From contig CAILEP010000007.1 in assembly GCA_903833275.1 (NCBI GenBank), positions 62,001 through 126,000 of the forward strand: 64,000 nucleotides of DNA, read 5' to 3'. A program made the position numbers and the translations under genes. The notes beneath the pieces are model-generated. The model ran no database searches, was not told where the DNA came from, and saw only the letters and a list, made by a program, of their open reading frames with translations. Source of the stretch: an uncultured Bdellovibrionales bacterium (lineage in GTDB: Bacteria; Bdellovibrionota; Bdellovibrionia; Bdellovibrionales; UBA1609). This document shows, one piece after another, positions 1 to 15,768 of the stretch (positions are counted from its first letter, which is position 1; each line of letters opens with the position of its first letter).

Positions 1-792
1 GAAAATCGCAAACGGAAAGTGAAAGGCATGCCAATAGCCCATCATCTGCTGAAAGGGCTCGATAAAGACCTGTTTGCGTTTGGTTTCGGCATACACCTGT
101 AAAACTATCGAAAGTTTTTTGGGCCACGTTGGGCCGACGGGTACCTCGTTAAAGGCGAGGCGTATGTCGCCAATAATTGCAGAGAAAAACACGACAATGA
201 GATTATAGTCTTCCATGTCAGCGGGTACCCCGGCCATTTGCATGGCGCGGCCCATGTACTGGGCTTTTTCTTCTGGCGGGATCACTAAATTACGCTTCTT
301 AAAAGACGCATCAATACGTTGTGAAATGCGCTCGCATAGATTTTCTAGATCTGATTTTCGAGTCAAAAGTTGCACATAGAAGTAGCGCCCGATAATGCCG
401 CTTGAGAAGGAGACCACCATGCTCCAAAAACTAATGGCGACAACGCCGCGTACTTTGAAATTGCAATGATAGAGAATGAGCGTCGGCCCGAGTAGGCCAC
501 AAAAAATATGAAAATCGAGCCAGGCTCTTAGGCTGCCGAGCGGCCGCATAAACGCAAATTTTTTGCGCATCGAATAGAGGTTCATAATGATCATCAGCCC
601 GAGGCCAACCCAACCCAGCCAAAGAGAAAGCGAACGACCAGGGACGGTTGAAACCACGAAAGCTTTTGGCAGAATGCCCGAATGCTGAAGTAGCATAAGG
701 ATGCTACGGCCGGGCTGATGCGAAAGCGCCCAAAATTCGTAGCCGAAATAAACGGTTCCAATTATCCAAACTGAAATATACAAGATCATCAT
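1..792 (-). CDS. Partial b-type cytochrome-like membrane protein
   Basis: The reading frame is open from an ATG pair at 792 to the left edge (264 codons), so the C-terminus is missing. An in-frame TAG lies two codons upstream. I see four hydrophobic segments at about residues 1-23, 55-72, 90-108 and 115-140. The third carries two histidines about 14 residues apart (FHIFCGLLGPTLILYH), as expected for haem b ligation in cytochrome b561 or ferric-reductase-like bundles. The fourth ends in SGIIGRYFY, a motif I associate with cytochrome b/b6-domain proteins. A soluble charged region follows, then another hydrophobic stretch at the cut. It follows the 27-haem lipoprotein gene by 80 bases on the same strand and is probably in its operon, perhaps passing electrons between quinol and the c-type cytochromes. 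The haem b reading is inference. Confidence 0.65.
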   Translation of the reverse strand, partial: MMILYISVWIIGTVYFGYEFWALSHQPGRSILMLLQHSGILPKAFVVSTVPGRSLSLWLGWVGLGLMIIMNLYSMRKKFAFMRPLGSLRAWLDFHIFCGLLGPTLILYHCNFKVRGVVAISFWSMVVSFSSGIIGRYFYVQLLTRKSDLENLCERISQRIDASFKKRNLVIPPEEKAQYMGRAMQMAGVPADMEDYNLIVVFFSAIIGDIRLAFNEVPVGPTWPKKLSIVLQVYAETKRKQVFIEPFQQMMGYWHAFHFPFAIF

Positions 793-861: not shown

Positions 862-884
862 GGCAATTGATTCTACCAATTGCC
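862..884 (-). other. Stem-loop spanning the stop codon of the 27-haem gene
   Basis: GGCAATTG (862-869) and CAATTGCC (877-884) form a perfect 8-bp stem with a 7-base loop that contains the TAG stop of the cytochrome gene. There is no T-run after it on the minus strand, so it is not a standard terminator. It may be a processing or stability element between the cytochrome gene and the downstream membrane-protein gene. Confidence 0.4.
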
Positions 885-3800
885 GCCAGTGGTATAATTT
901 AAAGTCGTGTTATTCCAGGTCGGGGGTTTCGCCCCCGAGTGTTGGTGGCAGGCCACGCAGCTCGTGGTCGCACTGAGCCCAGTGGTAGAGGTGCCGCCGG
1001 CGACTAAAGATGCCCCGGCCTCATGGCCTGGCGCCTTTTGGGTAAATCTACCCAAGTTAGTAGTGATCGTCGTGGCTGATACAACGAGGCTCGTGGTTGC
1101 ATGACAGAAACCACAATTGACACTACTTGCGCTGGACGGGTGATCCCAGCCGATAATCGAAGCTGTCGAGTTGTAGTTTAAGTGGCAAGTTGCACAATCA
1201 GAACTTGTGATTGCGTGAGTGGTGTTGGTCGTGATTTGGGTCGGGTGGGCTATTGTGACGGTTGTCGGGGTGCCCCACTTGGTATTGGCGGTAACAGCGA
1301 GCGTAATGGTCGCGGGCATTGCGCCGCTAGCCCCGAGCCAATTTGGCGCCGCGGCAGTACCTGTGCCCGGCACGTCATGACATGATTTGCAATCGCCGTT
1401 GCCGAGTGTAGCTGGATTATGATCGGGTATAACGTGCCCTGCAGTATCGGCAACGACACCATTGGCCGGACGCTCTTGTACGTGGCAAGTTGCGCAGTTA
1501 CCGGTGATCATAGACTTGCTTGAAAAATTAGTATGAAAGGTTGCGTCCTTCCACTTGTTGCCGGTTAGGCCGGCGGTGGTGTGACAGTAGTTACAATCTT
1601 TAGCGGCGACATCAGCCTCCGTATGTGTAACCTGCGCGTGAATAGTCGAAGCGCCAGAAATTAAAGAGGCTGATAATTTTGCAGAATTCGTCAACCCAGC
1701 AGGGATATCATTGCCCGTGCCGGCGACGGCACCACCACCATTAGTAAGACCATGACAAGCTTGGCAGCTCGGTGGTGTCGCAATGTTGATATGCACTTGA
1801 TCCGTGTTCTTCCAGGTCGTGGGTAGAGCAGCGGGGGTTGCGCTCGCCGTGAGATCGCCCTTGTGGCAAGTCGCACACTCAGCCGGTACATTTGGCGAAG
1901 CGTGGTTCATGTGTTGCGCGTCGTTAGCACTGATGGTCAATGTTAACGGTTTGGTCGTATGACAATCGACGCAAGAAGTGATTGCCGTCGGCGGGATATT
2001 TTTATGAAAGAACGCAAAACCAGGGTTGGCGACGTTGTTCCAGCTCGTGGGTATAGCGGTCGAGCCAGTGATCGTGGTCACAATTTGTGCATTAGAGGTA
2101 AAGGCGTGGCAGGCCGTACAGTCGCCAGCAACTGAAGCGGAAGTGTGCTTCATGCCCGTTACATATAAATTGGCAGCTGTGTAGTTGGTGACGGCGGCGC
2201 CGGTGCCAGCCGGTACCGTTGTAAAGTGACAAGTCGTACAATTGCTTGGCAAAACGCCAGCCGGTAAATTTTTATGAAAATTAGCGCCAGTAAAATCGGT
2301 GCCGGCGCGGGTGTTACCGTGGCAGGTGATACAATCAAGCCCGCCGACCGCCGTTTGGCCATTCGACAAAAGTGCCGCGTGGTTCATCGGGGTGTTCGCT
2401 TGAACTGCGCCCACGATGTCAATCGGCGCCGTATTGATATGGCAGTCTTTGCAAGAAGTTAAATTAGTATTGGTCACCCCAGCCGCTTTGTGAAAGGTCG
2501 CCGGCATAATAGTGGGGAAGGCCGTATGGCAAGTCGCACAATTAGTTGGTGTAGTAGCCGTTGGGTTCGTCGACGTGATAAGCGGCAACCCGACTGCGCC
2601 CACTTGAGCCGACCCGTGTAGCATTTGATCGTAGAGCTGCGGCACCGGTGATGGGTTTGTCGCAACAATTTGGCCGAGAGGCAAAGTGTTTGAATTAATA
2701 TGGGTCGGCGTCGGAGCAATCGTCGTCTTCGGCGCGCTGGGGTTCGGGCCCATCAGTGCATTCAATGACATGCCTTGGCCACCGCGCCAATCGGTATCGC
2801 CCCAAAGGGTCTGGCTCGCGGTTAAATAATTTGCGTAAGCTTTACCAGCGACCACGACGCCATTGATCGTGCCACCAGTGACGGTCGTCATGTGACAACC
2901 AATACAATCACCCTGGCCATCTGTTGTGTGACTGAATGTGCCAGCGTAAAAAGTGTTCGGGCCAATGCTAACAGTGGGCCGTTGCGAATTGTGGCAAGTT
3001 TGGCAAGATGTCAAAGTGTCGGTGGCAGCCGCACCATTTGCATAAGCGGTGGCGTGATTAAAATTGCCATTTGCCCAATTGACCACGGCCGTATAGCTAG
3101 AAACCGCGTGGCAAGTATCACACTGAAGACTATTGCCGTGGGCAGTAGAATTGGCGGTGGCACTTAAATCAAAGGGCTTATGAGTTGCATCGTATGCGGT
3201 GAATGCATTTGCTACGCCATTCGCGGTGAGAAAAGTTGAATTTGTTGGGCGCTGTGAATCGTGGCACGCATTGCACTTACCGGCGATCGTGGCGTTGTTG
3301 GTAGTATTGTGAAACTTGCCGTTTGCCCAAGCTGTTGTGCCGGCGGCTTGCACTTGCGCCAACGTCGTTGGAGCTGCGTGACAGCCGATACAATCGCCTG
3401 CACCAGCCGGGTCAGAGGCGTGATTAAACTTCGTCAAAGTAGTTGAAGCGGCGGTTGTCGGCACGAGCCCGGTCGGCAAACTGTTGCCGTGGCAATCTAA
3501 ACAAGAGGTTGGCTGACTGGCCCCGAGTGAGGGGTGAAAGTAGGCGACAGGGCCATTTGTAGAAACAGTTTTAAGCGGAACATTCCAGCCATTGCCAACT
3601 GTGGCCGCGGCGGTGGGCACTTGGTGACATTGGGCGCAGTTATTTGAAACCAGAGTTGTTGTCATTTGGGTAAACGTGCCGTTTGCATTTTTTGCCCAAA
3701 CCACGGCCCCGTGATTCATCGCGGGTGAGGCCGGGTTGCGAGTTGTCGAATTAACCGGCCCGACAAAGCCAGCGGGAACATTGCTATTGGCGATCGTATG

Positions 3801-4604
3801 ACAGTCTGTGCAGCTTGCGGGTTGCGCAATGGCGGCAGCTGTTAACGAAGTGTGAAAGTATCCATACTTATAAACGCCCGTTGGGGCGCCCGCGTGACAG
3901 AGTACACAGCTGTCCATGTTGGCTGAAGAAACGGTCGTTGTCGCATGGTTCATGCTCATTAGTATCGTTGCCGATGCCGTGGTCGGGAAGGTGAGCGTGG
4001 TGCCAGTCCACGACGGAATATATTCTGTCAAATTAAAGTCACTGCCTGAGTAGTCGACCGGCTTTGGCGGTGCAACGACACCACCTTGCCAGTCGGTGTC
4101 GCCAAATATAGGCGAACTTGAAGTCGAATAAACATTAAATGAAGTCGAAAGAGATTTTTGATGGCAACCAACGCAATCGACATTGGCGGGGTGAGTGAAG
4201 GCCGTCGTTGTATAAGTATTCGGACCGACCGCGACGGTGGGCCGTTGTGAGCTATGACAATTTTGACAATTTGTTGGCGTCGGTGAGTGTGTGTAATGGC
4301 CGCTGCCCCACTCTGCGGCGGTGCGAAACCCGACCGAGGTCACCATGTGACAGCTGATGCAATCGACCCCAGCGCCGTGAGTGCTATAATCAAATGGTGC
4401 ACTTGGGTTTAGCGCAATAAAATTGGCGGTGGACGTTGGGCGTTTGCTTTCATGACAAGTCGAGCAGCTGGTCTCTGTGCCCAAGTGGCTAAACCCGGCG
4501 CTGGCCAGACTGGCATCGACAGAAGGCGCTTTGACCCCGCAGTTCTGAAACAACAGAACTAAAGGGATCGCGACTAAAATGAACTGCCAATATAGCTTTT
4601 TCAT
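873..4604 (-). CDS. 27-haem c-type cytochrome lipoprotein
   Basis: A 1243-residue protein with 27 CXXCH haem-binding motifs counted by eye, spread over its whole length, so it is a large multihaem cytochrome c. The N-terminus is a lipoprotein signal: a hydrophobic stretch ending LLFQNC, with the lipidated Cys at residue 22. It should be lipid-anchored to the periplasmic or outer face of the envelope. The spacers are rich in Thr, Ala, Asn and Gly and contain isolated histidines (FNHA, MNHA, KFHN) that could be distal axial ligands. One block of two haem motifs followed by GDTDW-x-GG occurs twice, near residues 110-175 and 540-625, so the protein grew partly by internal duplication. The ATG overlaps the stop of the upstream oxidoreductase gene (TAATG), so translation is probably coupled. 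Terminal electron transfer at the surface is inferred from the context. Confidence 0.85.
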   Translation of the reverse strand: MKKLYWQFILVAIPLVLLFQNCGVKAPSVDASLASAGFSHLGTETSCSTCHESKRPTSTANFIALNPSAPFDYSTHGAGVDCISCHMVTSVGFRTAAEWGSGHYTHSPTPTNCQNCHSSQRPTVAVGPNTYTTTAFTHPANVDCVGCHQKSLSTSFNVYSTSSSPIFGDTDWQGGVVAPPKPVDYSGSDFNLTEYIPSWTGTTLTFPTTASATILMSMNHATTTVSSANMDSCVLCHAGAPTGVYKYGYFHTSLTAAAIAQPASCTDCHTIANSNVPAGFVGPVNSTTRNPASPAMNHGAVVWAKNANGTFTQMTTTLVSNNCAQCHQVPTAAATVGNGWNVPLKTVSTNGPVAYFHPSLGASQPTSCLDCHGNSLPTGLVPTTAASTTLTKFNHASDPAGAGDCIGCHAAPTTLAQVQAAGTTAWANGKFHNTTNNATIAGKCNACHDSQRPTNSTFLTANGVANAFTAYDATHKPFDLSATANSTAHGNSLQCDTCHAVSSYTAVVNWANGNFNHATAYANGAAATDTLTSCQTCHNSQRPTVSIGPNTFYAGTFSHTTDGQGDCIGCHMTTVTGGTINGVVVAGKAYANYLTASQTLWGDTDWRGGQGMSLNALMGPNPSAPKTTIAPTPTHINSNTLPLGQIVATNPSPVPQLYDQMLHGSAQVGAVGLPLITSTNPTATTPTNCATCHTAFPTIMPATFHKAAGVTNTNLTSCKDCHINTAPIDIVGAVQANTPMNHAALLSNGQTAVGGLDCITCHGNTRAGTDFTGANFHKNLPAGVLPSNCTTCHFTTVPAGTGAAVTNYTAANLYVTGMKHTSASVAGDCTACHAFTSNAQIVTTITGSTAIPTSWNNVANPGFAFFHKNIPPTAITSCVDCHTTKPLTLTISANDAQHMNHASPNVPAECATCHKGDLTASATPAALPTTWKNTDQVHINIATPPSCQACHGLTNGGGAVAGTGNDIPAGLTNSAKLSASLISGASTIHAQVTHTEADVAAKDCNYCHTTAGLTGNKWKDATFHTNFSSKSMITGNCATCHVQERPANGVVADTAGHVIPDHNPATLGNGDCKSCHDVPGTGTAAAPNWLGASGAMPATITLAVTANTKWGTPTTVTIAHPTQITTNTTHAITSSDCATCHLNYNSTASIIGWDHPSSASSVNCGFCHATTSLVVSATTITTNLGRFTQKAPGHEAGASLVAGGTSTTGLSATTSCVACHQHSGAKPPTWNNTTLNYTTGGNW

Positions 4605-5944
4605 TATTTCGCCTTTGCTAAGCCTTCGCCGAATTTCTTTTCAATTTTAATACCAACACTTGAGAGAAACTTGTGAGGCAATTCGGCACCCGCCATCACA
4701 AAAATAAAATCATTAGGTACTTTAACTACTTCATTTTCTTTTTTAATTTCAACGTAGTCATCATGAATCGAAACAACACCAGAATTAAACCATATATTTA
4801 GACCGACCTCTTTTTCTAACGTACGCAACCGGTTCTGATTGTCTTCGTTGCACCGGTCGAAGGTCCCGGTTCGAACGAGTTGGTGAACCTTATTGCCCCA
4901 ACGTTTGTCGGCCAACATTTGAGTGACTTCTGCACCGGCGTTACCGCCGCCAACCACAACAATATTTTTCTTTTGATACTGTTCGGGGTCTATCAGATTA
5001 TAGGTCACCTTGGGTTTGTCTTCACCAGGCACGCCTAATTTACGGGGCGAACCGCGAACTCCCATAGAAAGAATGACCTTGCGGGCAGTAATATCGCCCT
5101 TGTTAGTCTTGACGACAAAAATGTCGCCCTTCTTTTCAATATTTTCAAAGCGTGTCTTTTCTTGGACCTTAAGACCGGCTTGCTTTCGCACTTTGTCGAA
5201 GTAGGAAAGTAGTTCCTCTTTTGAAACCTCATGCTGCGGGAATTTCGCAAGCCCCACGATAGGCAAGTTAAACGGGTGACTCATAACCAGTTTTTGTCTT
5301 GGGAAGCTATATATAGTGCCGCCGAAAGCGTTTTGCTCAATCACCATATAGTTTTTCTTTTTGGCAACAGCGTTCATGCCGGCGGCAATACCGGCGGGGC
5401 CCGCGCCCACGATCAAGATATCGGTGTCAGCTTTGGCATTCGGCAAATTGCTGAGGGCATGGTCAGCGGCCATGACCCCTTGTTTGACAGCATTTCGAAT
5501 GAGGCCCATGCCGCCCAATTCGCCGGCGATGTACATGCCGGGCACGTTTGTTTCATAGTTCGTTGATACGCGGGGGATATCCATTCCGCGAGTTTTTGTT
5601 CCGAAAACTAAATCGATGGCACCCATGGGGCAGACCACTTCGCACTCGCCGTGGCCGACACATTTGGTGGGGGTGACAAGCACCGCTTTATGATTGATTA
5701 GCTGTAATATGTCGCCTTCTGGGCAGGCCGTAGTGCAGGCCCCACAACCGATACAGAGACTTGTGTCAATATCAGGGTGCATCGTCATCGGTTCGTTCAT
5801 TTGACTGTCGACTGCTATCTTTAGTTTAGCCTTGGCCTTTTTATGGTGTTTGGCGCGGCCTTTAGAACGAGATAGCACCACGACTGCGCTGACCAGCAGA
5901 AAGAAAACAATCGTAATATGGTCAATCAAATAATGCAGAACCAT
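4604..5944 (-). CDS. Membrane-anchored ferredoxin/FAD-dependent NAD(P)H oxidoreductase
   Basis: 446 residues. A single N-terminal membrane helix (about 9-25) is followed by a Lys-rich linker and a ferredoxin-like region. The first cluster motif is CIGCGACTTACP (Cys64, 67, 70, 74). The second is CVGHGECEVVCP, where His98 stands at the usual second Cys. A thioredoxin-reductase-like fold follows, with GAGPAG (about 180) for FAD and GGGNAGAE (about 333) for NAD(P)H. I see no CxxC redox pair of the thioredoxin-reductase type, so a disulfide substrate is unlikely. The likely role is electron exchange between NAD(P)H, flavin and Fe-S centres at the inner membrane. It is the first gene of the leftward operon and overlaps the 27-haem cytochrome start, so it is a plausible electron entry or exit point for that chain. 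The physiological partner is unknown. Confidence 0.8.
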   Translation of the reverse strand: MVLHYLIDHITIVFFLLVSAVVVLSRSKGRAKHHKKAKAKLKIAVDSQMNEPMTMHPDIDTSLCIGCGACTTACPEGDILQLINHKAVLVTPTKCVGHGECEVVCPMGAIDLVFGTKTRGMDIPRVSTNYETNVPGMYIAGELGGMGLIRNAVKQGVMAADHALSNLPNAKADTDILIVGAGPAGIAAGMNAVAKKKNYMVIEQNAFGGTIYSFPRQKLVMSHPFNLPIVGLAKFPQHEVSKEELLSYFDKVRKQAGLKVQEKTRFENIEKKGDIFVVKTNKGDITARKVILSMGVRGSPRKLGVPGEDKPKVTYNLIDPEQYQKKNIVVVGGGNAGAEVTQMLADKRWGNKVHQLVRTGTFDRCNEDNQNRLRTLEKEVGLNIWFNSGVVSIHDDYVEIKKENEVVKVPNDFIFVMAGAELPHKFLSSVGIKIEKKFGEGLAKAK

Positions 5945-6170
5945 GTCGCCTCGTTAAGGTTTGGTGGGCCGGTGCCCCATTAGTACAAGTTTATTAGTAA
6001 TTTATCGGTCTGACAGCTCAATTGCTCAACCGTTTCACCTTGGGACACTCTAACTTCACGCGCCGGCGCTCTGGCACGATAAGTGACGAACTTTTAGCCA
6101 GTTTTGGGGGCGAAAAAGAATTGACGTCTCTCCGGCACTGACCAAAACTTAGACATTAGAAAATAGATTC
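5945..6170. promoter_or_regulatory. Divergent promoter region of the two cytochrome operons
   Basis: These 226 bases separate the leftward oxidoreductase-cytochrome operon from the rightward barrel-cytochrome operon, so both promoters must lie here unless they are further out. No clear Fnr palindrome (TTGA-N6-TCAA) was seen. A CTGGCACG at 6071-6078 resembles a sigma-54 -24 element, but the matching -12 element reads GTGA instead of TTGC. TTGACG at 6121 could be a -35 box without a good -10. Confidence 0.4.
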
Positions 6171-7499
6171 ATGCGAATATTTATACTCGGGTTCTTTCTT
6201 TTACTAACCTCCGCTCAAGCCTTTGCAAACAAGGTCAACGGTCGAATTGAGCTCGGTGGTTATACGGCCACAGAAAGGTTCGTCGACACAACGGGTGGCT
6301 CGCAAGAAAACGATTTTCAGCTATTTACTTTTCGTTCATTTTTAAGTGTTAGCGAAATCGGCGACTCGAAATATGAATTTAATTCTGACGTTCGCGATAA
6401 ATACGATTTCTTTGATACTCTTAATAAAGCGCAACTGACGCTTGACCCGTCCAATACATTTCAAGTGCAACAGCTCAATATTCGCAAACCCATTTCGGGT
6501 GATTCTGGCATGGGGTACACCGTTGGCCGTACCGCGGTGCCAGAAGCTGGGGGCGCGTTTAACGATGGTTTGCTCGTGAAATATCACACCCAATCTTACA
6601 TTGATTATGCTGCGTTTGGAGGGTTGAACCCCAAGATCCCAGGGCAGGCCCATCTTGATTTTAATTCTAAAGCAACTACTTACGGAGTGTTTTTATCTTA
6701 TCAACCAAAAAATGTAGAGTGGAACAAAAGCTTTTACCTGACCCACGCCCTCGTAAGTCAGGCTGATGATGGCCATACAGATCGGCAATATCTTTTTCAC
6801 AATTTGAGTTATCAATGGCGCAATAACAGTCGTCTTATCACCTTTCTTTATCTCGATTTTATACCTCGAACGTATATTCAAGAGGGCAGTGTTTTTTGGC
6901 AGCAAGAGCATTCGGACTACTTTTACAGCAAGCTTTCGCTGCTCGGGGTTGATTCTATTGGTTATGTTCACATTCAGGGCAAGCTTGATAAGTTAGACCC
7001 GTCGCCTTACAAACAGGCCTCGCTTGCGTTTGATTATCGCTTTAACCCGCTCGTCACTTGGGAGCTCGCGACACTTTACGGCCATCGTAATTTCGACGGG
7101 CTTTCTAAAACCGAGTATGCGCTCTCGATGGCCAACCAGAGAAGTTTTGGCCCCAATTGGGCCACCAATTTCACTATTGGGCATCGTAATAATTTTGTCA
7201 GCAATGATGAGTTTGGTCGCGTGGGTATTGGGTATTACTCTCGAGCTTGGGAGACCTTTGCGAATATTGAAGCCGGCATTGAAAAATACACTCAGGTCAG
7301 TACAACTCACCATCCTCTTGTAACTGAGCTTGGCATTACTCATTTTTGGAGCAAGCAACTCTACCTAACAGGTTCTTTCGAGAGAGATGCGAACGAAGAG
7401 GTTACGATTCTTTCGGTATTCTTTAAGCTCGGTTATCGTTACGGCAATCGCGAGATACCACCGCTGCGGGATGGTTCGCCAGTGAAGGGGTCGCTCTGA
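6171..7499 (+). CDS. Outer-membrane beta-barrel protein linked to a multihaem cytochrome
   Basis: 442 residues with a Sec signal peptide (about 1-20, cleavage after AFA). The mature part is rich in alternating aromatic and polar residues (for example TYGVFLSYQP, YFYSKLSLL, ASLAFDYRF, QLYLTGSFERD), typical of transmembrane beta-strands. It has no haem motif. The stop overlaps the start of the 30-haem cytochrome gene (TGATG), so the two are translationally coupled. Pairing of a barrel with a multihaem cytochrome is the hallmark of porin-cytochrome conduits such as MtrAB and PcaAB types. I do not recognise it as MtrB or PioB by sequence, and it is shorter than MtrB (about 690 residues). An outer-membrane sheath for the cytochrome is inference. 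Confidence 0.7.
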   Translation: MRIFILGFFLLLTSAQAFANKVNGRIELGGYTATERFVDTTGGSQENDFQLFTFRSFLSVSEIGDSKYEFNSDVRDKYDFFDTLNKAQLTLDPSNTFQVQQLNIRKPISGDSGMGYTVGRTAVPEAGGAFNDGLLVKYHTQSYIDYAAFGGLNPKIPGQAHLDFNSKATTYGVFLSYQPKNVEWNKSFYLTHALVSQADDGHTDRQYLFHNLSYQWRNNSRLITFLYLDFIPRTYIQEGSVFWQQEHSDYFYSKLSLLGVDSIGYVHIQGKLDKLDPSPYKQASLAFDYRFNPLVTWELATLYGHRNFDGLSKTEYALSMANQRSFGPNWATNFTIGHRNNFVSNDEFGRVGIGYYSRAWETFANIEAGIEKYTQVSTTHHPLVTELGITHFWSKQLYLTGSFERDANEEVTILSVFFKLGYRYGNREIPPLRDGSPVKGSL

Positions 7500-10015
7500 T
7501 GAAAATGCAACGTTGGTTGATGTTTTTGTTATGTGCGGTCGTGGTCGGCGCACCGGGCAGTTTGGTTGTCGCGAAAAACGAAGGTGTGCTTAACAAATTA
7601 TTGGCCCCCGGGCCGTTGATCGAGGGTCACGCCGACCTCGAGGGCTCTGATTGCTTAAAGTGCCATGACGCTGGTAAGGGCGTGCCCGACAGCAAGTGTT
7701 TGGCTTGCCATAAAGAAATTCGCCCGTCTGTAGAGAACAAGCAGGGGTTTCACGGCTTGAACTCAAAAACCTGTCGTGAATGTCATGCTGACCATAAAGG
7801 TCGTGAGTTCAATACGGTGGCGGTTGATCAAAAGACTTTCGATCATGAAAAATTAACGGGCTACACTCTCGAGGGCAAGCACTCGAAATTAAAGTGTGAA
7901 GAATGTCACAAAGAAACCCGTAAAGAAAAACCAATTCGCCAAAATGAAATTCGATTTTTTGGTCGCCAATCGAGCTGTGTGGCCTGTCATAGAAAAGATG
8001 ACGTGCACTTTTTCAAAGACAAATGGGCGAAGAAAGATTGCGCCAGCTGTCACTCGCCCGCGTCTTGGAAAGAAAAAAACCATTTCGACCATTTAAAAGA
8101 AACCAAATACCCTCTGAAGGGTAAGCATCTTAAATTGAAGTGTGCCGAGTGCCATATCGTTAAGGGCACCAAGACCAAGTCAATTTACCAGTGGCCTTCG
8201 TTTAAGACCAAAGAATGCCTTGAGTGCCATGAAAGCCCACATAAAGGCCGTTTGGCTGAGCGTTTTCAAGGCGGTCGTTGTGATAAGTGCCACAACGAAA
8301 CCGAGTGGAAGTTACCGAAGTTTGATCACGCTGTTACGAAGTACCCGCTACATGGCAAGCATGCGCAGCTCAAGTGTGAGGGCTGCCATAAGCAAGATGC
8401 GAAGGTGATCGCACAGCCCGATCGAAAGAACTGGAAATGGTTAGGCCTCAAGTCACAATGCTTATCTTGCCACAAAGACTATCATCGCTTTGGCGCGCAT
8501 GAGATGAAGCGCTTTGCGCCACTCAACTCGTGTACGCCCTGTCACACCGACGTGAAGTGGGATGATATTAAGCACTTTGACCACAACATGAACACGCGAT
8601 TTATGGTTGACGGCAAGCATGACGAATTGAAATGCGAAGAGTGCCATTTGACCAAAGACGCCAAGGCAAAGCCAGTGGTCTGGCTCAAGGTTGGCAACTA
8701 CAATTGGCCGTCGCTTGAAAAGAAGACGTGCGAGAACTGCCATAAAAACCCCCATGTCGGTAAGTTTAGCGAAAAGATTTTGGCCAAAAAGTGCACGTCA
8801 TGTCACATCACTCGGGCTTGGGTGATTATGAAAAACGGCAAAGACTTCGATCACTCTAAGACCCGTTTTGCTTTGACCGGGGCTCATCGCAAGGCGAGCT
8901 GTGCCGAATGTCATTCGCGTGATAAAAAAGAAATCTACAAATTTAAAAATTTTGAACAGAAGTTTTGTATTGATTGCCACGACAGCGTGCACACGAAAAT
9001 GTTTAGCGCCAAATTCAATGCGGCCTCGTGCGCCGAATGTCATGGCACTGATTCGTTCGCCAAGCGCCCGCCCTTTAATCACGACATAACGAGAATGCCG
9101 TTAAAGGGTGCGCACGCAAAAGTAGACTGCGAGCAATGTCATACCCCGAGCAGCTTGAAACTTTTGGTCTTAGCACCAAGCGTAAACAAGAAACAGTACC
9201 CCAAGGGCAAAACGTTTGTGCACGACAAGTTTCAATTCAGTGGTTACAAACAGGGCGAATGCTCGACCTGTCACTCGGACGTTCACAAGGGTCAAGTTGG
9301 GTCTGATTGCCTGAAGTGTCATACTGAAACCGAGTGGAAGTTAAAGGTTTTTGAGCATGACAAGAAAACCAAATACGAATTGCGTGATAAACATAAAGAT
9401 GTTTCGTGCAGCAAGTGTCATTTGCCTGTCAAAGGTGAAACTGTAAAAGAATTCAAGCGCATTGTGCAGGTCATTCGCTATGCACCGATTTCGTCTGAGT
9501 GTAGCGCTTGTCATAAAGATGCGCATAAAGGTAACTTCGGCCCGAGCTGCAAAGAATGTCACTCAGAACGGGGCTGGAAGGTCACGCGCGACTTTCACAA
9601 GAGTTTCACGCTGACCGGCATTCACTTTTCTCTCGATTGTGCCGAGTGCCATCGCGATGGCCGTAAACTCGCCGGTCTTTCGCAGCAGTGTCTCGCTTGT
9701 CATCAAAAAGATGACGTGCACTATGGCACTTTGCCGCGTTGTCAGGATTGCCATCGCCAACAGTTTTGGGAGATTGCGAGCTTTAAACATTCGCTTACGA
9801 TGTTCCCGCTCAGAGGGGCTCATCGTACGCTCGATTGCGCCGTCTGCCACGCGGGTGGGGTTTCGGCGGTCGGGGCCGGGGTTTATCAGGGGCTGTCGAC
9901 AACTTGTCTCGTCTGCCACCAAGCTGACTTTCAATTTGGCCATGTTGCGCCGGGCGGGCACGGGGCCGGCGGGCCTGTTTGCACCGATTGCCATCATAAT
10001 CAGTTTAGATTTTAG
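7499..10015 (+). CDS. 30-haem periplasmic cytochrome c
   Basis: 838 residues with a signal peptide (about 1-26, ending VVAKN) and 30 CXXCH motifs by my count. The protein is built of a repeat in which FDH-x-x-T-x-(Y/F)-x-L-x-G-x-H-x-x-L-x-C-x-x-CH is followed by paired CXXCH motifs and HKG or WK. Histidines in the FDH and GKH positions are likely second axial ligands. The mature protein is Lys- and His-rich, unlike the Thr/Ala-rich 27-haem lipoprotein, so the two are not recent duplicates. It lacks a lipobox and so should be periplasmic. Its coupling to the upstream barrel gene and to a downstream TlpA-like thioredoxin suggests a periplasm-spanning electron wire that needs active haem attachment. 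It might be a wire to the outside or a store of electrons. Confidence 0.87.
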   Translation: MKMQRWLMFLLCAVVVGAPGSLVVAKNEGVLNKLLAPGPLIEGHADLEGSDCLKCHDAGKGVPDSKCLACHKEIRPSVENKQGFHGLNSKTCRECHADHKGREFNTVAVDQKTFDHEKLTGYTLEGKHSKLKCEECHKETRKEKPIRQNEIRFFGRQSSCVACHRKDDVHFFKDKWAKKDCASCHSPASWKEKNHFDHLKETKYPLKGKHLKLKCAECHIVKGTKTKSIYQWPSFKTKECLECHESPHKGRLAERFQGGRCDKCHNETEWKLPKFDHAVTKYPLHGKHAQLKCEGCHKQDAKVIAQPDRKNWKWLGLKSQCLSCHKDYHRFGAHEMKRFAPLNSCTPCHTDVKWDDIKHFDHNMNTRFMVDGKHDELKCEECHLTKDAKAKPVVWLKVGNYNWPSLEKKTCENCHKNPHVGKFSEKILAKKCTSCHITRAWVIMKNGKDFDHSKTRFALTGAHRKASCAECHSRDKKEIYKFKNFEQKFCIDCHDSVHTKMFSAKFNAASCAECHGTDSFAKRPPFNHDITRMPLKGAHAKVDCEQCHTPSSLKLLVLAPSVNKKQYPKGKTFVHDKFQFSGYKQGECSTCHSDVHKGQVGSDCLKCHTETEWKLKVFEHDKKTKYELRDKHKDVSCSKCHLPVKGETVKEFKRIVQVIRYAPISSECSACHKDAHKGNFGPSCKECHSERGWKVTRDFHKSFTLTGIHFSLDCAECHRDGRKLAGLSQQCLACHQKDDVHYGTLPRCQDCHRQQFWEIASFKHSLTMFPLRGAHRTLDCAVCHAGGVSAVGAGVYQGLSTTCLVCHQADFQFGHVAPGGHGAGGPVCTDCHHNQFRF

Positions 10016-10037
10016 TTTTATTTGAAAGGCTCATCGC

Positions 10038-10586
10038 TTGAAAATGCCAGCAACCCGTAAAATTATTTTTGCCGTTTTGCTCATCTTGTTTGTTGCCGGT
10101 GCGGCGACGCTTTTTTTGAAATTTAAAAAACGGGCGTCTGAATCATCAAATTTTTCTGTGCGAGTTGAAGATGGCCTGCCGCCACCCAGCTTGCCCGGCC
10201 AGCGGGCGCCATCCTTTGAGGCCATCACCATGGCGGGGCAGAATTATAAATACAACCCAACCCAAAATGAGCGAACCCTGGTGGTGTTTTGGGCTTCTTG
10301 GTGCCCGCCCTGCGCCGAAGAAACACCGGCGCTTATTGATTTTTCGAAACGCCACAGCAATTGGCAAATCGTGGCTGTCTCGAACGATTCGACAGAGAGA
10401 GAAATTCGTGATTTTTTTAAAATATTTCCGAATTTAAGCCAGCCCAATATCGCGATAGTTTGGGATCTCGAAAGACGAGTCTCAAATGCGTATGGGGTAA
10501 CGGGCTTGCCTGAATCTTTTATGATCGATCAAAAAGGTTTATTGATTCAAAAATTTATCGGCCCAGTCGATTGGAAGAAATTCTAA
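10038..10586 (+). CDS. TlpA/ResA-like membrane-anchored thioredoxin
   Basis: 182 residues. An N-terminal membrane anchor (about 8-27) is followed by a periplasmic thioredoxin-like domain with the active-site motif WASWCPPC (Cys89 and Cys92) and the downstream GLPESFMID segment with the cis-proline region. Proteins of this TlpA/ResA/CcmG type reduce the CXXCH cysteines of apocytochromes c before haem attachment. It starts 22 bases after the 30-haem cytochrome gene, so it is probably co-transcribed and dedicated to maturing the multihaem proteins. Start ATG at 10038; a possible alternative in-frame TTG or GTG upstream was not preferred. Confidence 0.83.
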   Translation: MKMPATRKIIFAVLLILFVAGAATLFLKFKKRASESSNFSVRVEDGLPPPSLPGQRAPSFEAITMAGQNYKYNPTQNERTLVVFWASWCPPCAEETPALIDFSKRHSNWQIVAVSNDSTEREIRDFFKIFPNLSQPNIAIVWDLERRVSNAYGVTGLPESFMIDQKGLLIQKFIGPVDWKKF

Positions 10587-10637
10587 CTTTCGCTCGAGCG
10601 GCGCCATGAAGGGCTCGCGCCGTGGGCGAGTCAGTGA

Positions 10638-11318
10638 CTAGACAATAATCCCGGCGATTTCTTGAAGGCGAGAATGATCGCGAATCTCAACTCGGCGGCC
10701 TATTTGTGCAATAATTTGCTCTTCTTCAAAATGGCCTAAGGTGCGAATAACAGATTCGGGTGTCGTGCCGGCCCAGTCGGCCAATTCTTTTCGGGTAAAT
10801 TTATGTTCGGGGATATTACCGACAAAATAAATTAACGCTTCGGCTACACGGCAGGGCACATCTTTGTCGACCCCACTGAGAAGGCGTGATTGTAGAAGGC
10901 GAAGTTCTTTAAAAGCGTCTGTCATAAATTTAATAGCCAGGTCAGGTGAGTCGCGCAGCACTTGGCGAAAAACTTCACCCTTAAAAGTGCAAGTGCTTGT
11001 ATCTTCAACTGCGGTGGCTGAAAAAGAAACGGGCTGGTTAGCAAGCACTGAGCCTAAGCCCAAGACCTCGCCACCTTTAATAAAGCCAACAGTCACAGAT
11101 TTGCCTTCGCGGCCCATAGTTTCAAGTTTGATAAGGCCCATACGCAAACAAAATACCGACCCGATGTTGTCGTTCTGGTCGAATAGAACTTCGCCTTTTT
11201 TAAAATTGTGCGCGTGTTTGAAATTATCAAACAGGGCCTGATTCTGATTCGAAAGCAGGTGAAAGCCTGTTGTTTGAAAAGATTGACACTGTCGACAGCT
11301 GTGCGGAGTGTTATTCAT
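10638..11318 (-). CDS. Crp/Fnr-family transcription regulator
   Basis: 226 residues. The N-terminal half is a cyclic-nucleotide-binding-type beta-roll (about 20-140, with the GEVLGLGSVL segment). A dimerisation helix follows, then a C-terminal winged helix-turn-helix with TRKELADWAGTTPESVIRTL (about 177-196), typical of Fnr/Crp recognition helices. The N-terminus has C-x-x-C (Cys8, Cys11), but I do not see the full four-Cys set of Escherichia coli Fnr, so an oxygen-sensing Fe-S cluster is uncertain. It faces the cytochrome operon convergently and is the obvious candidate to control it. An ATGA-N6-TCAT palindrome at 11337-11350, just upstream of its start, resembles an imperfect Fnr site and could be autoregulatory. 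Confidence 0.85.
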   Translation of the reverse strand: MNNTPHSCRQCQSFQTTGFHLLSNQNQALFDNFKHAHNFKKGEVLFDQNDNIGSVFCLRMGLIKLETMGREGKSVTVGFIKGGEVLGLGSVLANQPVSFSATAVEDTSTCTFKGEVFRQVLRDSPDLAIKFMTDAFKELRLLQSRLLSGVDKDVPCRVAEALIYFVGNIPEHKFTRKELADWAGTTPESVIRTLGHFEEEQIIAQIGRRVEIRDHSRLQEIAGIIV

Positions 11319-11424: not shown

Positions 11425-12693
11425 TCAGGGTCGGTCGCCGTAGCGTTTCACTTTGTATCCAGTGCGTAGGTTGCTTGGGTTTACTGATTTATATTTTACA
11501 ATCAGTTTGCCGCCGGGTTCTGGGTTTAATTCAAGATTTGGGTTCAAGTGAACGCTGTTGTTTGTCGGATCGTATTGAAAGCCGATTAGATCAGGCGATG
11601 TTTCGAAGGGGACTTGTTGCATGTTGGGGCAGCCCGGCTGATCTGCTAAGTCAGGCCTTGGGATGCCGTAACAAACCGTAAGCGTGGCGCTCGGGTCGCC
11701 GTTAATCATTGGAACTCCACGAGAAAGTGAAATGACCTTGGGTAGTGTTCGAGTTCGAATCGACTTGCCGATCTCGGCTAATTTGTCGCCAAAAGGTTTA
11801 CATAGCGTCACCACATTTGACTCATCAATCGATGCAAGGTGCAGCAAATCTTCGATTTTTACCGGTGGGCCGCCAGGGTCACGTACGCACGAATTGTCGT
11901 CTGTGGGCACGACGGCGCCGTAGATCATGACCTTCGAGCGGTCACCATTGGCTGAAGCGAGAAGCGAATAGTAGAGCTCGCTAGCGCTACTGCGAGAGTC
12001 GTCCGTTGCATCAGTAACGAAGAAAATTATTTTATATGCGTTTGGGCCAAAGAAAAACCCGCTTTGTCGAGACATTTTGTCCTGAGACAATTTGTCGCCA
12101 CCAGGCAAGTTAAAGGCGGCGGCAACTGGCGAAAACGATTCTTCAAACTCGGGGCCGCCATTCTTTAAAGATTGAACGCCAATATTAATCGTATTTTTTA
12201 AAAGATCTTTGAGGTTAGCGTCGGCCGATGAAATAAAAAATTTATCTTTAACAATCGAATTTGGGCCGTCTTTAACCGGGCGAAATTCGCCGTTCTCAAA
12301 GGTATTCAATTTGTCAGTGCCCGCGAATTTAGTTTTGTAGTTTTGCGAGTCGTAGGTTCTGTGATCGTAAATAGATACAACCGCGAGATGATATTCAATT
12401 GGGTTTTTGCGTGTAAACTCATCGACGAAGCGATTGATGTTGTCGGCCATTTGGGGGTGCAAGAGCATACTGTCAGAGGTGTCGACCACGACAAGTATTT
12501 CAGCTTTCGGGGTTATGTCGAACTGTACACCGCCACCATTTTCAGAAAATTTCTCGTAAGCCGGCTTTGGGTTCATCATATAACTTGTCGGCGGAGAACT
12601 GCAGGCGACTAAAAGCGCAGAGGTCATAGCCACAGGGCCCGCAATTGCCAAAATATTTCTAACGGCATTTACTAGTGTTGCTTGGGTTTTCAT
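11425..12693 (-). CDS. vWA-domain lipoprotein, CglB-like adhesin candidate
   Basis: 422 residues. A lipoprotein signal ends LLVAC with the lipidated Cys at 31. A von Willebrand factor A domain starts at about 64 with a perfect MIDAS motif DTSDS (Asp71, Ser73, Ser75) and a later FFVTDATDD that can supply the MIDAS aspartate. The C-terminal part has several cysteines (NSC, TLC, TVC, PGC) that could form disulfides. Such domains bind a divalent metal and a ligand. It is the last gene of the TolQ/TolR-AgmX operon, with its ATG overlapping the stop of the gene before it by 4 bases. In Myxococcus the gliding adhesin CglB is a vWA lipoprotein of about this size, so a surface adhesin for gliding is a good hypothesis. 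The link is by context and architecture only. Confidence 0.75.
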   Translation of the reverse strand: MKTQATLVNAVRNILAIAGPVAMTSALLVACSSPPTSYMMNPKPAYEKFSENGGGVQFDITPKAEILVVVDTSDSMLLHPQMADNINRFVDEFTRKNPIEYHLAVVSIYDHRTYDSQNYKTKFAGTDKLNTFENGEFRPVKDGPNSIVKDKFFISSADANLKDLLKNTINIGVQSLKNGGPEFEESFSPVAAAFNLPGGDKLSQDKMSRQSGFFFGPNAYKIIFFVTDATDDSRSSASELYYSLLASANGDRSKVMIYGAVVPTDDNSCVRDPGGPPVKIEDLLHLASIDESNVVTLCKPFGDKLAEIGKSIRTRTLPKVISLSRGVPMINGDPSATLTVCYGIPRPDLADQPGCPNMQQVPFETSPDLIGFQYDPTNNSVHLNPNLELNPEPGGKLIVKYKSVNPSNLRTGYKVKRYGDRP

Positions 12694-13499
12694 ATGCTCG
12701 CTCTTTTCTTAGTTATTTTCTTGCCCGAGACATTAAGTGTTGGGCATTCTTTAACCTGAGCTTGATATTTACCAAGTTCATCAAGCCATACTTCGTCATT
12801 AACTTTAAACTTCATAACATCAGAGCCCGAGGCGATCTGCCCCTGTTCGAGGCGGTTGTCATTTTTCTTTGTAAGGCTGATGCGCTCAATCACTTCGGCT
12901 TCAATCACCTGAAGTTTATTGATGACCCCATCAATTTCTTTAAGGCCGTTTCGCCCGTGAAGCTGAAGATTCGGTTTATTAGAGGCCACCTCGGTTTGAA
13001 GGGTGTCGATTCTCGGTTTCATTTGCGTTTTAAATTTTTCGGTGACTTTGAATACAGTGGCGTAATCGCAGATTTTCAAATTTGTTAGGGCAGCCGTAAA
13101 GTAAATTTCGGGGCTTACGCGGTCTGCAAACATTGGCGCCATTGCTGTTTGCAATGTGGCGATGACGTCAGCATATCGACCTTTGCGGCCGAGGGCCTGA
13201 GCCTTCTCATCAATTGAGGTCAGCCAGAAGGCCGATCTCTCGGGGATCTGGTTGTACTCTTCGAGAGCCGCATCTAATTTTTCGGTTTGAAAATAAATTC
13301 GAGCGCGAGTCAGGTGTAACAGATCAGCGGCAATTTGTTTTTTCGTATCAAGTTCGTTCAAAATGGCGAGAGCCTGTGTCGTTTGATTTTTCAAAGCCAA
13401 CTCGAGGGCGCGATCGAAGGCCCCGGCACTGGCGTTCTGTGCAGATGCGCTTTGAATAATAGCGATGGCTAGAATGCGGCCAAGAGTTTTTAAGATCAT
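12690..13499 (-). CDS. Exported helical repeat protein, GltC-like position
   Basis: 269 residues with a signal peptide (about 1-24). The first half is helical and reads like tetratricopeptide repeats (ALELALKNQTTQALAILNEL, LHLTRARIYFQTEKLDAAL, EYNQIPERSAFWLT). The second half is charged and probably coiled-coil, ending in a Lys/Arg-rich tail. It is therefore likely a periplasmic scaffold protein. It overlaps both neighbours by 4 bases (ATGA). In the myxobacterial glt genes a TPR protein (GltC) sits next to the beta-barrels GltA/GltB and the lipoprotein GltK. The same neighbours are found here, so this is the positional counterpart of GltC, though shorter. Confidence 0.6.
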   Translation of the reverse strand: MILKTLGRILAIAIIQSASAQNASAGAFDRALELALKNQTTQALAILNELDTKKQIAADLLHLTRARIYFQTEKLDAALEEYNQIPERSAFWLTSIDEKAQALGRKGRYADVIATLQTAMAPMFADRVSPEIYFTAALTNLKICDYATVFKVTEKFKTQMKPRIDTLQTEVASNKPNLQLHGRNGLKEIDGVINKLQVIEAEVIERISLTKKNDNRLEQGQIASGSDVMKFKVNDEVWLDELGKYQAQVKECPTLNVSGKKITKKRASI

Positions 13500-14266
13500 A
13501 ACAAGAACCCGATTGAAAGTGTGCTTATGACGGTGTTTTCATTGCGCGGGCCACTATAGATTTGATCTGTGTATGATTGATAGCGAACTTCAAATCGACT
13601 CGTTAGATGTTGCGACATCCAGAGGCCGATGCCGCCGCCGGCCGTCCAGGTGCTGGTGCTGCCCGAGTTGAGTACGATTTGCCCTGCTCCGCCTAACAAG
13701 TAGATATCAAATTGCGCAACGCCAAGGTCGAACATGTTGAGCTTACCGTATATCGGGTAGAAGTTGATTACGCCAACAGTTGAGTTCTTCGGGTAGTCGA
13801 CGGCCGGTTGAGTATAGGGTTGACCCAGAGCCGCCGAATTTGAGGCGTCATTAAATACACGCGTGCCTTCAGAGGTCAGTGAGTTTGTGAAGTTGGCATA
13901 GCGTACGCCGACTGACCAATGTGGGTTGATGTGCAGGTCAAGATTGCCGCCTACAGATTGGGTGTTGATATAGGGGTCGCCGCCGCCGACGAGGCCGTAA
14001 TTGAGGCCCATTTCTAATCGCCAGTGGCGATCCACTTCGCGTTTTTGGACGATCTCAGTTTTGTTGGTTGGGCTCAAATATTTGGCGCGACGAACAAGTT
14101 CGGGGTTGCCGCCCAAAGTGTCGATTTTTGATTTCGGGTTGGCATTTTCGCTCTCGGTGGCTTGTTGTGCGGCCGCGCTTGATAGCGACCACGTCAATAC
14201 AACCGCATAACCGATGTAAAGCAGCGCTTTCGTTAACTGCAATGATCTTACTTTCGGTGAATTCAT
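13496..14266 (-). CDS. Outer-membrane beta-barrel, GltA/GltB-like
   Basis: 256 residues with a signal-anchor or signal peptide (about 12-33, ending SSAAAQQ). The mature domain has regular beta-hairpin features (RLEMGLNYGLVGGG, GNLDLHINPHWSVGVRYANF, GGIGLWMSQHLTSRFEVRYQ) and ends in an aromatic/leucine terminal strand (STLSIGFLL), as in 8-stranded OmpA-like barrels. It should sit in the outer membrane. Its size fits the GltA and GltB barrels of the Myxococcus gliding complex. It overlaps the lipoprotein gene upstream and the repeat-protein gene downstream by 4 bases each. Barrel assignment is firm; the gliding role is inferred from the operon. Confidence 0.72.
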   Translation of the reverse strand: MNSPKVRSLQLTKALLYIGYAVVLTWSLSSAAAQQATESENANPKSKIDTLGGNPELVRRAKYLSPTNKTEIVQKREVDRHWRLEMGLNYGLVGGGDPYINTQSVGGNLDLHINPHWSVGVRYANFTNSLTSEGTRVFNDASNSAALGQPYTQPAVDYPKNSTVGVINFYPIYGKLNMFDLGVAQFDIYLLGGAGQIVLNSGSTSTWTAGGGIGLWMSQHLTSRFEVRYQSYTDQIYSGPRNENTVISTLSIGFLL

Positions 14267-15768
14267 GGCTTCGACCCTCCGCTGGCTTTCGTGGCTGCCG
14301 CAGTTGCCTTAATCGGCGAACAATTTGCGGCCTTGCCAGTTAAGCTAACTTTAAAATTTAAATCTTTTTGTTGTTTCGAAGTACCCAAGGTCGATTCTGT
14401 GCTGATAATAAGATTTGTTGTGCCTTCTTTCGCGTCACAGTTGCTGGCCACTTGTACGTGGCAACTTTTTACGCAAGCGCCGGTTTTACAACCCATGATC
14501 TCACCAATGGCGGCTCCACCCGCTTCGCAGGTGAGGCTGAGCTCGACGCCGTCTTGCGCTAATTTCAACGTGGCGTTCGATTTGGTGGCCTCTGCAGTTT
14601 TGCCTTGATCATCGGTATCTTTACCGGCCTTGGTCGGATCACTGATTCGAATTGAGTTCACTTTAACTTCGCCGCGAGCACCATCGGCTTTAATAAAAAA
14701 CTGCTCGCTAATTTGACTGCCAATTTTTGCGCTGGCCGTACCGGCCCCGCCAACAAACTTGGGCTCGCCGGCCTTATCTGTCATATTTACTTTGATAGCG
14801 ATGAGGCGATGTTCGTCCGAAGTTTTTTGACTGTATTCATTGTAGGCCGAAATATAAAACAGCGCTTCGCCGGCAGTGAGCTCGCCTTTTTGAAACTTAG
14901 CCTTAAGGGCTGGAGTACGATCGATTTGCTTCTGAAGTTCGTCAGCAAACGTTCGGGCCTTGAAGTTGATTACATACTCATAGCGAGCGCGGCCTTGGGC
15001 GTCAGCCCCGAGTGATCGGGTCTGAGTGGCATGAAGGTCGGTTGCCGAATAGCCATCCATTTGCGCGAGTTCGAGCGACGGCTCTTGGGGCCCACGCTCA
15101 AAGTTAATTTTCAGATCTTGGGCTTTGTGCAAACCTTTTGCCGCTGCTACAAACTGAATTTTAACGTCTTGGTCGGCGTTAACTTCTGACCCGGGTATTA
15201 ATTTAATCGGATTGGTTTCGCTTTTTTCGATAATGGGCTGGTCTTGCTCTTTATATAACGTAACCGTCAAATCTTTTTTAGCGTAGTAGCCGGCGAGATT
15301 GGCTTTTGAAACAGCCGAGCTTGACGGGTCGAGAACGAAACTCAGTTGTAAATCAAGTGGTCGATTATTTTCAGATGCAGAAAGAAGATTAGTTGCAGGT
15401 GCCCAGCGAAGCGCGAATGAATCGGGGCCAACGCGCGTGAAGGTTGCACCAGCCGGCCCCTTTGTCATAATCACATTGTAGTGCACGCTCGAGTTGTCGT
15501 TAAAAAACAAACGGACCTTGAAGTTAACAGCTGTATTTTCACCTTGGTAAAATACCAGGCTGTCTTGATTGTCTATGCTGAAAAGCTGAGTTTGAGTAGT
15601 CTGATCGGCAGATTGGCGTTGGTAGGCGGGTACTGAATTTTTGAGCGACTCATAGTTTTGCAAAGGGTCTTGGCTTCGAGAGCCGCAGCCGATTGAAAAT
15701 AGAGTGGCTGTTGCAAGGGTGCCTGAGAGCAGCGCGTTCGCAAACAGTGTGTTAAATTTGGTCTTCAT
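14263..15768 (-). CDS. Large lipoprotein, GltK-like position
   Basis: 501 residues. The lipoprotein signal ends FSIGC with the lipidated Cys near residue 28. The rest is beta-rich and soluble with a run of repeated Ig-like or cadherin-like patterns (SVHYNVIMTKGPAGATF, DSFALRWAPATNLLS) and a Cys cluster near 425-460 (CEAGG, CKTGACVKSCHV, SNCDAKEG). The last domain resembles a small disulfide-stabilised module. I do not recognise the family. It lies between the AgmX-like gene and the beta-barrel gene, the place of the lipoprotein GltK in the myxobacterial gene order. An outer-membrane-attached partner of the barrel is likely. Start ATG at 15768 has a clear GAGGAG ribosome-binding site. Confidence 0.6.
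   Translation of the reverse strand: MKTKFNTLFANALLSGTLATATLFSIGCGSRSQDPLQNYESLKNSVPAYQRQSADQTTQTQLFSIDNQDSLVFYQGENTAVNFKVRLFFNDNSSVHYNVIMTKGPAGATFTRVGPDSFALRWAPATNLLSASENNRPLDLQLSFVLDPSSSAVSKANLAGYYAKKDLTVTLYKEQDQPIIEKSETNPIKLIPGSEVNADQDVKIQFVAAAKGLHKAQDLKINFERGPQEPSLELAQMDGYSATDLHATQTRSLGADAQGRARYEYVINFKARTFADELQKQIDRTPALKAKFQKGELTAGEALFYISAYNEYSQKTSDEHRLIAIKVNMTDKAGEPKFVGGAGTASAKIGSQISEQFFIKADGARGEVKVNSIRISDPTKAGKDTDDQGKTAEATKSNATLKLAQDGVELSLTCEAGGAAIGEIMGCKTGACVKSCHVQVASNCDAKEGTTNLIISTESTLGTSKQQKDLNFKVSLTGKAANCSPIKATAAATKASGGSKP

Follow-up and report, generated by a model that had tools for sequence, protein, structure and literature searches.

A 30-haem cytochrome of three-haem modules in a Bdellovibrionales gene cluster that probably encodes a PCC3-type electron conduit

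Introduction

The closest described counterpart of the system studied here is the predicted porin-cytochrome system PCC3. Its proposed components are a porin, two cytochromes with very many haems, one extracellular and one periplasmic, and an inner-membrane protein (IMP) of ~300 aa (He et al. 2017, PMC5566968). According to the PCC3 sections of that paper the IMP is likely to bind two b haems and has two WX3HX13H motifs, SGXXG and five transmembrane (TM) helices. The authors noted repeats and already proposed that the periplasm is spanned, and their model, hypothesised in iron oxidisers, leads electrons from an outside donor to the quinone pool. The periplasmic PCC3 cytochromes of Gallionellaceae are described with 21, 24 or 27 haems, all multiples of three (PMC10734462), and a review passage estimates that ~27 haems bridge a periplasm of ~200 Å (PMC7096707). 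The PCC3 sections of these texts contain no biochemistry, and PCC3 remains a prediction. Here we analyse a stretch of 64,000 nucleotides (the window) from an uncultured Bdellovibrionales bacterium, corresponding to contig C7:62001-126000 of a 3.08 Mb genome in 35 contigs. It encodes a 30-haem cytochrome, CYT30, within a cluster that is probably a conduit of the PCC3 type. We found no report of such a system in Bdellovibrionota in open-licence PubMed Central, supplementary PCC3 host lists aside. Positions are those of the window unless stated otherwise; genomes (G), contigs (C) and loci (L) carry our own numbers.

Three-haem modules of CYT30

The initial annotation predicted a 30-haem cytochrome at 7499-10015 on the forward strand. 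This was borne out, as the gene encodes 838 aa with 30 CXXCH motifs. A hydrophobic segment at residues 5-27 (Kyte-Doolittle) is consistent with a signal peptide, and the periplasmic location assumed in the published PCC3 model is plausible for CYT30 too. The annotation had also described a recurring FDH/GKH-CXXCH repeat. The repeat is real but marks only one haem in three, being the start of a three-haem unit that reads approximately F-D-H...T-x-Y-x-L-x-G-K-H-x2-L-K-C-x2-C-H ... C-x2-C-H-x3-H ... C-x2-C-H-x4-W. We counted 8 occurrences of the strict pattern FxH...GxH...CXXCH and a ninth, looser copy from residue 699. In 20,000 shuffles with the CXXCH motifs held fixed the strict pattern appeared 0 times in 19,988 cases and once in the other 12. 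When the protein is cut ahead of each G-x-H-x4-CXXCH, at the preceding F-x-H (or F-H), the part past the signal region yields ten segments, each 63-92 aa long and with exactly 3 CXXCH:

7574-7837, forward strand: module M0 (N-terminal, divergent), haems 1-3
7838-8083, forward strand: module M1, haems 4-6
8084-8320, forward strand: module M2, haems 7-9
8321-8575, forward strand: module M3, haems 10-12
8576-8845, forward strand: module M4, haems 13-15
8846-9073, forward strand: module M5, haems 16-18
9074-9349, forward strand: module M6, haems 19-21
9350-9592, forward strand: module M7, haems 22-24
9593-9781, forward strand: module M8, haems 25-27
9782-10012, forward strand: module M9 (C-terminal), haems 28-30

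Outside the CXXCH residues, M1 to M9 show a mean pairwise identity of 29.2%, compared to a mean of 18.4% and a maximum of 20.0% in 40 shuffled sets. The repeats therefore align beyond CXXCH; a failure to do so had been named in advance as what would count against them. The idea of a modular haem array is supported, with the correction that a module contains three haems and not one.

The 30 CXXCH motifs appear to be matched by distal ligands. We based the His and Met column counts on a seven-row alignment of the family, in which there are 30 CXXCH His columns and 31 other columns with His in at least 4 rows. Apart from gaps 29 of these 31 are invariant, H620 is one column off in two rows and 358 is dispensable, so the conserved free-His columns hold as many candidate distal ligands (30) as there are haems. 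Every CXXCH His column is kept across the seven rows, apart from the one module missing in L012, and no Met column is conserved in at least 6 of the 7 rows. The number of free His equals or exceeds the haem number in all 24 complete porin-linked copies (defined below), and in one relative both numbers are exactly 21. The earlier suggestion that His in fixed places could be axial ligands is thus supported by conservation, as far as the alignment can tell. Less successful was the suggestion that a basic composition points to an acidic partner. The net charge K+R-D-E, a measure that leaves the haem propionates uncounted, varies from +18 to +118 over the 24 copies, and the 27-haem lipoprotein, the sole putative partner measured, is near neutral (-5).

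A sequence search of the Protein Data Bank with CYT30 alone gave nothing at E <= 0.01. The many multihaem proteins matched by the family or module profile scored weakly to moderately, and on this basis CYT30 could not be assigned a fold. The annotation had considered the array distinct from the MtrA decahaem fold, and here the evidence is divided: CYT30 reaches 66.1 bits against the DmsE/MtrA decahaem family TIGR03508, below the curated cut-off of 192.2, but MtrA (6r2q_A, 5.3e-10) and the c7-type dodecahaem 3ov0 (4.8e-10) are matched about equally well by the module profile. The decahaem model of the DmsE family is matched by all 7 family members scanned, at best with 6.1e-26. Against Pfam Cytochrome_C7 (PF14522) CYT30 scores 115.7 bits over 7 stretches, above the gathering cut-off of 24.8.

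Occurrence and haem number

Named relatives of the CYT30 protein come from three metagenome-assembled genomes labelled Bdellovibrionales or Bdellovibrionaceae. Carriers made up 6 of the first 98 related genomes, its own included, and in the phylum 34 of 368 genomes matched at E <= 1e-10, of which G126, G127 and G223 did so solely via a 277-aa open frame. For counting haems we defined a complete porin-linked copy as the window itself and open reading frames (ORFs) that do not run off a contig, with at least 20 CXXCH, a porin in the stretch and a best blastp match to CYT30 of at least 30% identity. Dropped were L060 and L065 as duplicates (same proteins as L011 and L012), L016/L017, L063, L064 and L075 as contig-split or broken, L071 (13 haems) and L076 (7 haems). 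Also left out were four distant ORFs (L055-L058, 22-24% identity), of which two run off a contig; they have 21, 37, 42 and 7 CXXCH, and we infer that they are extracellular partners. Three porin-less 27-haem copies (L072-L074) were counted separately.

The 24 complete porin-linked copies contain 30 haems (14 copies), 33 (three), 27 (two), 24 (three) or 21 (two). The haem number is thus a multiple of three in 24 of 24, and the same is true for all 3 porin-less complete copies. It changes at least 10 times on a FastTree phylogeny of 23 porins (a single tree with midpoint root, no support values used and one partial porin excluded). In the other 23 porin-linked copies the first segment was nearest to M0 in all cases and the last nearest to M9 in 22. 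The exception, L011, is a cutting artefact in which the pattern split the last module into pieces nearest to M9 and M8. Module gains and losses lie between conserved ends, M0-like at the start and M9-like at the close of the chain. Modules also keep their identity between proteins, with the nearest cross-protein neighbour bearing the same module number for 66 of 68. In L018 the additional module has M7 of its own chain as nearest neighbour, suggesting tandem duplication. Broken or contig-cut copies depart from the three-haem rule.

In G350 (L064, G350:C52, 8685-11675) the cytochrome is read as two ORFs, either by assembly error or by decay. We did not find the cytochrome in G001, a genome of the window's genus, where L033 (G001:C37) shows a TlpA match and short IMP fragments at 3055-4562; together these look like loss, with L033 a probable decayed copy.

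Gene cluster around the cytochrome

The following features of the window belong to the cluster:

7499-10015, forward strand: 30-haem c-type cytochrome CYT30, 838 aa, with 30 CXXCH, an N-terminal hydrophobic segment and ten modules
6171-7499, forward strand: outer-membrane beta-barrel porin, 442 aa, so assigned from its AlphaFold2 model, fold matches and gene linkage
10038-10586, forward strand: TlpA/ResA-like thioredoxin (Pfam AhpC-TSA 4.4e-17; NCBIfam DsbE/ResA matches below cut-off)
4604-5944, reverse strand: flavoprotein FER4FAD with N-terminal TM helix, ferredoxin-like Fe-S and FAD/NAD(P) parts (Fer4 and Pyr_redox families)
873-4604, reverse strand: 27-haem lipoprotein-like cytochrome LIPOCYT27, putative extracellular partner (27 CXXCH; Pfam MtrC/MtrF II-IV 1.1e-37)
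1-792, reverse strand: inner-membrane protein IMP, 281 aa, with two WX3HX13H, SGXXG and hydrophobic segments; the gene crosses the left window edge and is complete at G000:C7:61947-62792

The last base of the porin gene is the first base of CYT30 (7499). Among the complete copies, the window counted, a porin homologue lies directly upstream of the cytochrome in 24 of 27, usually with a 1- or 4-base overlap, and the porin ORFs of the linked copies measure 439-484 aa, one partial porin apart. No Pfam family was found for the porin. Its AlphaFold2 model has 21 long strands at a mean predicted local distance difference test (pLDDT) of 57.4, with residues 1-110 below 50. The matches listed by Foldseek and VIA are membrane beta-barrels, among them MtrB (6r2q_B), which aligned with a VIA Z of 16.6 over 290 residues at a root-mean-square deviation of 5.7 and was tied with unrelated barrels. 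The model therefore suggests a beta-barrel but not membership of the MtrB family.

In the IMP the residues W91-H95-H109, S131-G132-G135 and W254-H258-H272 are invariant in all 8 aligned homologues, Emticicia (see below) included. Kyte-Doolittle segments lie near 5-24, 52-72, 90-110, 112-135 and 253-280, giving five, or six with 195-217 in several rows. In the flavoprotein an N-terminal hydrophobic segment precedes Lys/Arg residues; under the positive-inside rule this would place the body of the protein in the cytoplasm. Its second Fe-S motif, CVGHGxC, has an invariant His in a position normally taken by Cys, and its thioredoxin-reductase-like motif ETNV.G..IAGELGGMGLI precedes rather than follows the Rossmann motif. 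Judged by eye, the protein looks circularly permuted. No relative was detected in the viral contigs scanned with the flavoprotein alignment. In G098 (L055) the flavoprotein is read as two ORFs, again an assembly error or decay.

At the thresholds used, the 368 genomes comprise 34 with the cytochrome, 34 with the IMP, 28 with the porin and 27 with the flavoprotein. Cytochrome and IMP share 31 genomes, cytochrome and porin 27. The flavoprotein (E <= 1e-60) is present in 27 of the 28 porin genomes and in 0 of the 340 others; the porin genome without it, G124, is an 80%-complete assembly in ~720 contigs.

The N-terminus of LIPOCYT27 ends in LLFQNC, from which we infer a lipobox and a surface location. 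A LIPOCYT-like gene occurs in many, not all, of the relatives' stretches, and unlike in the CYT30 family the haem number of these partners is often not divisible by three (for example 13, 20, 22, 10, 28, 26). The TlpA/ResA-like thioredoxin, judged by its sequence, probably serves haem attachment, and a homologue is present in 9 fetched stretches of relatives. Homologues of CcsB and CcsA are encoded just beyond the window (L013 13057-16937), and the source genome has a second CcsB/CcsA-like pair elsewhere (L026). Parts of the cluster recur among relatives in varying order, not every part being found in every stretch; some of these stretches end at contig ends.

Downstream of the thioredoxin gene a CRP/FNR-type regulator is encoded at 10638-11318. 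The window contains 53 FNR-like sites with <=2 mismatches compared to 38 expected, a number reached in 2 of 100 shuffles, and none of them falls within 5945-6170. A block of genes on the reverse strand at 12690-22150 encodes, judged by eye, ExbB- and ExbD/TolR-like proteins, and homologues of 3 of its genes also lie downstream of the cluster in L012. Elsewhere in the source genome, L025 (G000:C16) holds a second multihaem cluster at 2800-10625 with proteins of 4, 10, 4, 2, 7 and 9 CXXCH. It adjoins a gene for a 411-aa secreted-looking protein and is possibly a further electron route.

A distant cluster on an Emticicia plasmid

A distant homologous cluster lies in one run on plasmid pEMTOL02 of Emticicia oligotrophica DSM 17448 (NC_018749.1, L036). 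Like the cluster described above it encodes CcsBA, the IMP (31% identity), the flavoprotein (42%) and a large cytochrome (32% over 660 columns), together with a second, 40-haem cytochrome and a porin-like protein. It differs in that the CcsB and CcsA matches lie within one 1028-aa protein and that the cytochrome has 23 haems. The second cytochrome (L036 15746-18751, 1001 aa, 40 CXXCH) is probably the extracellular partner. The plasmid location and the scattered occurrence in Bdellovibrionota suggest transfer of the cluster.

Besides Emticicia, 2 of the 46 records were inspected, both of them sphingomonad plasmids. These hits were not counted as PCC3 as the cytochromes are short and no porin is annotated in the stretch seen. 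At both loci (L077 6220-9576 and L078 4366-7723) a small cytochrome c3-family protein is accompanied by a flavoprotein or Fe-S protein and by an iron-reductase-like or hypothetical gene. This trio is possibly a minimal form that does without a porin.

Proposed mechanism and alternative explanations

We consider it probable that the cluster encodes a trans-envelope electron conduit of the PCC3 type with CYT30 as its periplasmic wire. Electrons would pass from cytoplasmic NAD(P)H to the FAD and Fe-S centres of the membrane-anchored flavoprotein, and from there to two haems b of the IMP, which would take them across the inner membrane. They would then enter one end of the 30 c-haems of CYT30, bridge the periplasm and leave at the far end, held in the outer-membrane porin, for the surface multihaem lipoprotein and an outside acceptor. 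The attachment of so many haems would fall to CcsBA and TlpA. How far the wire reaches is probably determined by the number of modules, with the ends kept and the middle altered in three-haem steps; scaling from ~200 Å for 27 haems we obtain ~155, 220 and 245 Å for 21, 30 and 33 haems. Haem loading, bis-His ligation, membrane topology, periplasm spanning, docking in the porin, direction and substrate are all proposals based on these comparisons. Export is likelier than uptake given the linked flavoprotein, though we give this direction only about an even chance.

Several observations weigh against the proposed conduit. Assignment to PCC3 was judged by gene content and motifs and not by sequence homology. 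Most published PCC3 porins have many predicted strands (up to 42 in the PCC3 sections of the literature) compared to ~21 in our model, which is of moderate quality (pLDDT 57.4). The AlphaFold2 model of CYT30 itself, computed from four sequences, was unusable (pLDDT 31.8). The porin match in Emticicia is weak (profile comparison, probability 40.5%), and 7 of the 34 cytochrome genomes are without a porin match, among them those of the three 27-haem proteins of family f28 in L072, L073 and L074, which adjoin a different gene of 216-240 aa. The three-haem rule is broken by the Emticicia homologue (23), an ORF of G226 (13) and a short relative (7). The G226 ORF has 334 aa and lacks an M0-like start, so it may be truncated.

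The same parts could be run in the opposite direction. In the published PCC3 model electrons flow from an outside donor to the quinone pool (PMC5566968), and CYT30 could likewise carry them inward, with Fe(II) or some other compound as donor and the quinone pool or NAD(P)+ as recipient. This uptake differs from the export scheme in direction only, and the chances of the two overlap; on its own we consider it rather unlikely. An NAD(P)/FAD/Fe-S protein accompanies the porin cluster in 27 of 28 genomes, which argues for the outward route, and electron transfer from Fe(II) to NAD+ is thermodynamically uphill. A different role altogether, that of a periplasmic capacitor which stores electrons without an outside acceptor and whose length stands for capacity instead of reach, has been proposed for the Geobacter haem nanowires GSU1996, GSU0592 and GSU2210 (PMC10138318). 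The relevant passages describe GSU1996 as a tandem of three-haem c7-like domains, and the tandem modules of CYT30 together with its Cytochrome_C7 score recall that arrangement. However, each GSU1996 domain has one His-Met haem while no Met is conserved in the CYT30 family, the cytochrome gene is linked to a porin and co-occurs with IMP and flavoprotein, and a pure store would not need kept ends around a variable middle. We therefore regard storage as improbable.

CYT30 could further be a conduit of the MtrA/MtoA/PioA type that was enlarged by repeats and sits wholly inside the porin. The matches of all seven scanned members to the DmsE-family model and the presence of MtrB among the porin fold matches fit this idea, but the score of CYT30 stays below the family cut-off, MtrA is matched about as well as other multihaem proteins and most of a chain of 21-33 haems should not fit in the barrel of a 439-484-aa porin, so that this origin appears very improbable. 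Finally, as haem attachment in CYT30 rests on its sequence, only part of the CXXCH motifs might carry haem. The retention of the CXXCH His columns (L012's missing module apart), the equally large number of candidate ligands and the presence of CcsBA and TlpA in the cluster make such a partly empty array extremely improbable.

Within the PCC3-type conduit that we prefer, a more far-reaching version is conceivable, if doubtful. It would be a self-contained line from NAD(P)H to the outside that has moved between phyla, with a single polypeptide as bridge whose length is set in three-haem steps and matched to the envelope of each lineage. With one polypeptide spanning the periplasm no diffusing periplasmic carrier would be needed, and, unlike in the published PCC3 model, the quinone pool would be bypassed.

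Short constructs could serve to test the module, the haem number and the ligand count, all of which CYT30 defines precisely, and the natural variants with 21 to 33 haems offer a test of whether a cytochrome can span the periplasm. The conserved flavoprotein points to NAD(P)H and not quinone as the cytoplasmic end. Emticicia oligotrophica DSM 17448 is a cultured isolate with a distant homologous cluster, and relatives of Bdellovibrio gain a probable extracellular electron route.

Comparison with described systems

MtrCAB, MtoAB and PioAB also place a periplasmic multihaem cytochrome beside a porin, and MtrCAB includes a surface multihaem cytochrome. However, MtrA/DmsE has 10 haems whereas the CYT30 family has 21-33, with 30 in the window, and MtrB with its 26 strands is larger than the CYT30-linked porin. 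GSU1996 (12 haems) and GSU2210 (27 haems) resemble CYT30 as single many-haem periplasmic chains, GSU1996 also in its tandem three-haem domains; CYT30 is distinguished from GSU1996 by one candidate His per haem, the lack of a conserved Met and the linked porin. The third free His of PpcA differs in position from that of CYT30, which follows the second haem motif. The IMP recalls the membrane domain of ferric reductases and NADPH oxidases, which has HX13H on TM3 and TM5 for two haems b, as the IMP appears to have. It did not reach the cut-off of Pfam Ferric_reduct (PF01794), with 1 of 8 members at E 0.77, and the flavoprotein, which carries a Pyr_redox domain and Fe-S motifs, is encoded separately, unlike in ferric reductase.

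The agreement is closest with PCC3 as described in the published sections. Shared are the adjoining porin, an extracellular multihaem cytochrome in the cluster, the repeats and the low residue-to-haem ratio (838/30 = 28 for CYT30, 22-39 for published PCC3), and the IMP of 281 aa shows the published PCC3 motifs. As PCC3 had already been proposed, the CYT30 system is not new in kind. It differs in its 30 and up to 33 haems compared to the published 21-27, and in the presence of CcsBA and TlpA in the cluster and of the flavoprotein in nearly all porin genomes; the PCC3 sections of PMC5566968 make no mention of a flavoprotein. The hosts differ as well, with Alpha-, Beta- and Gammaproteobacteria named in the PCC3 text and Bdellovibrionota and a Bacteroidota plasmid found here.

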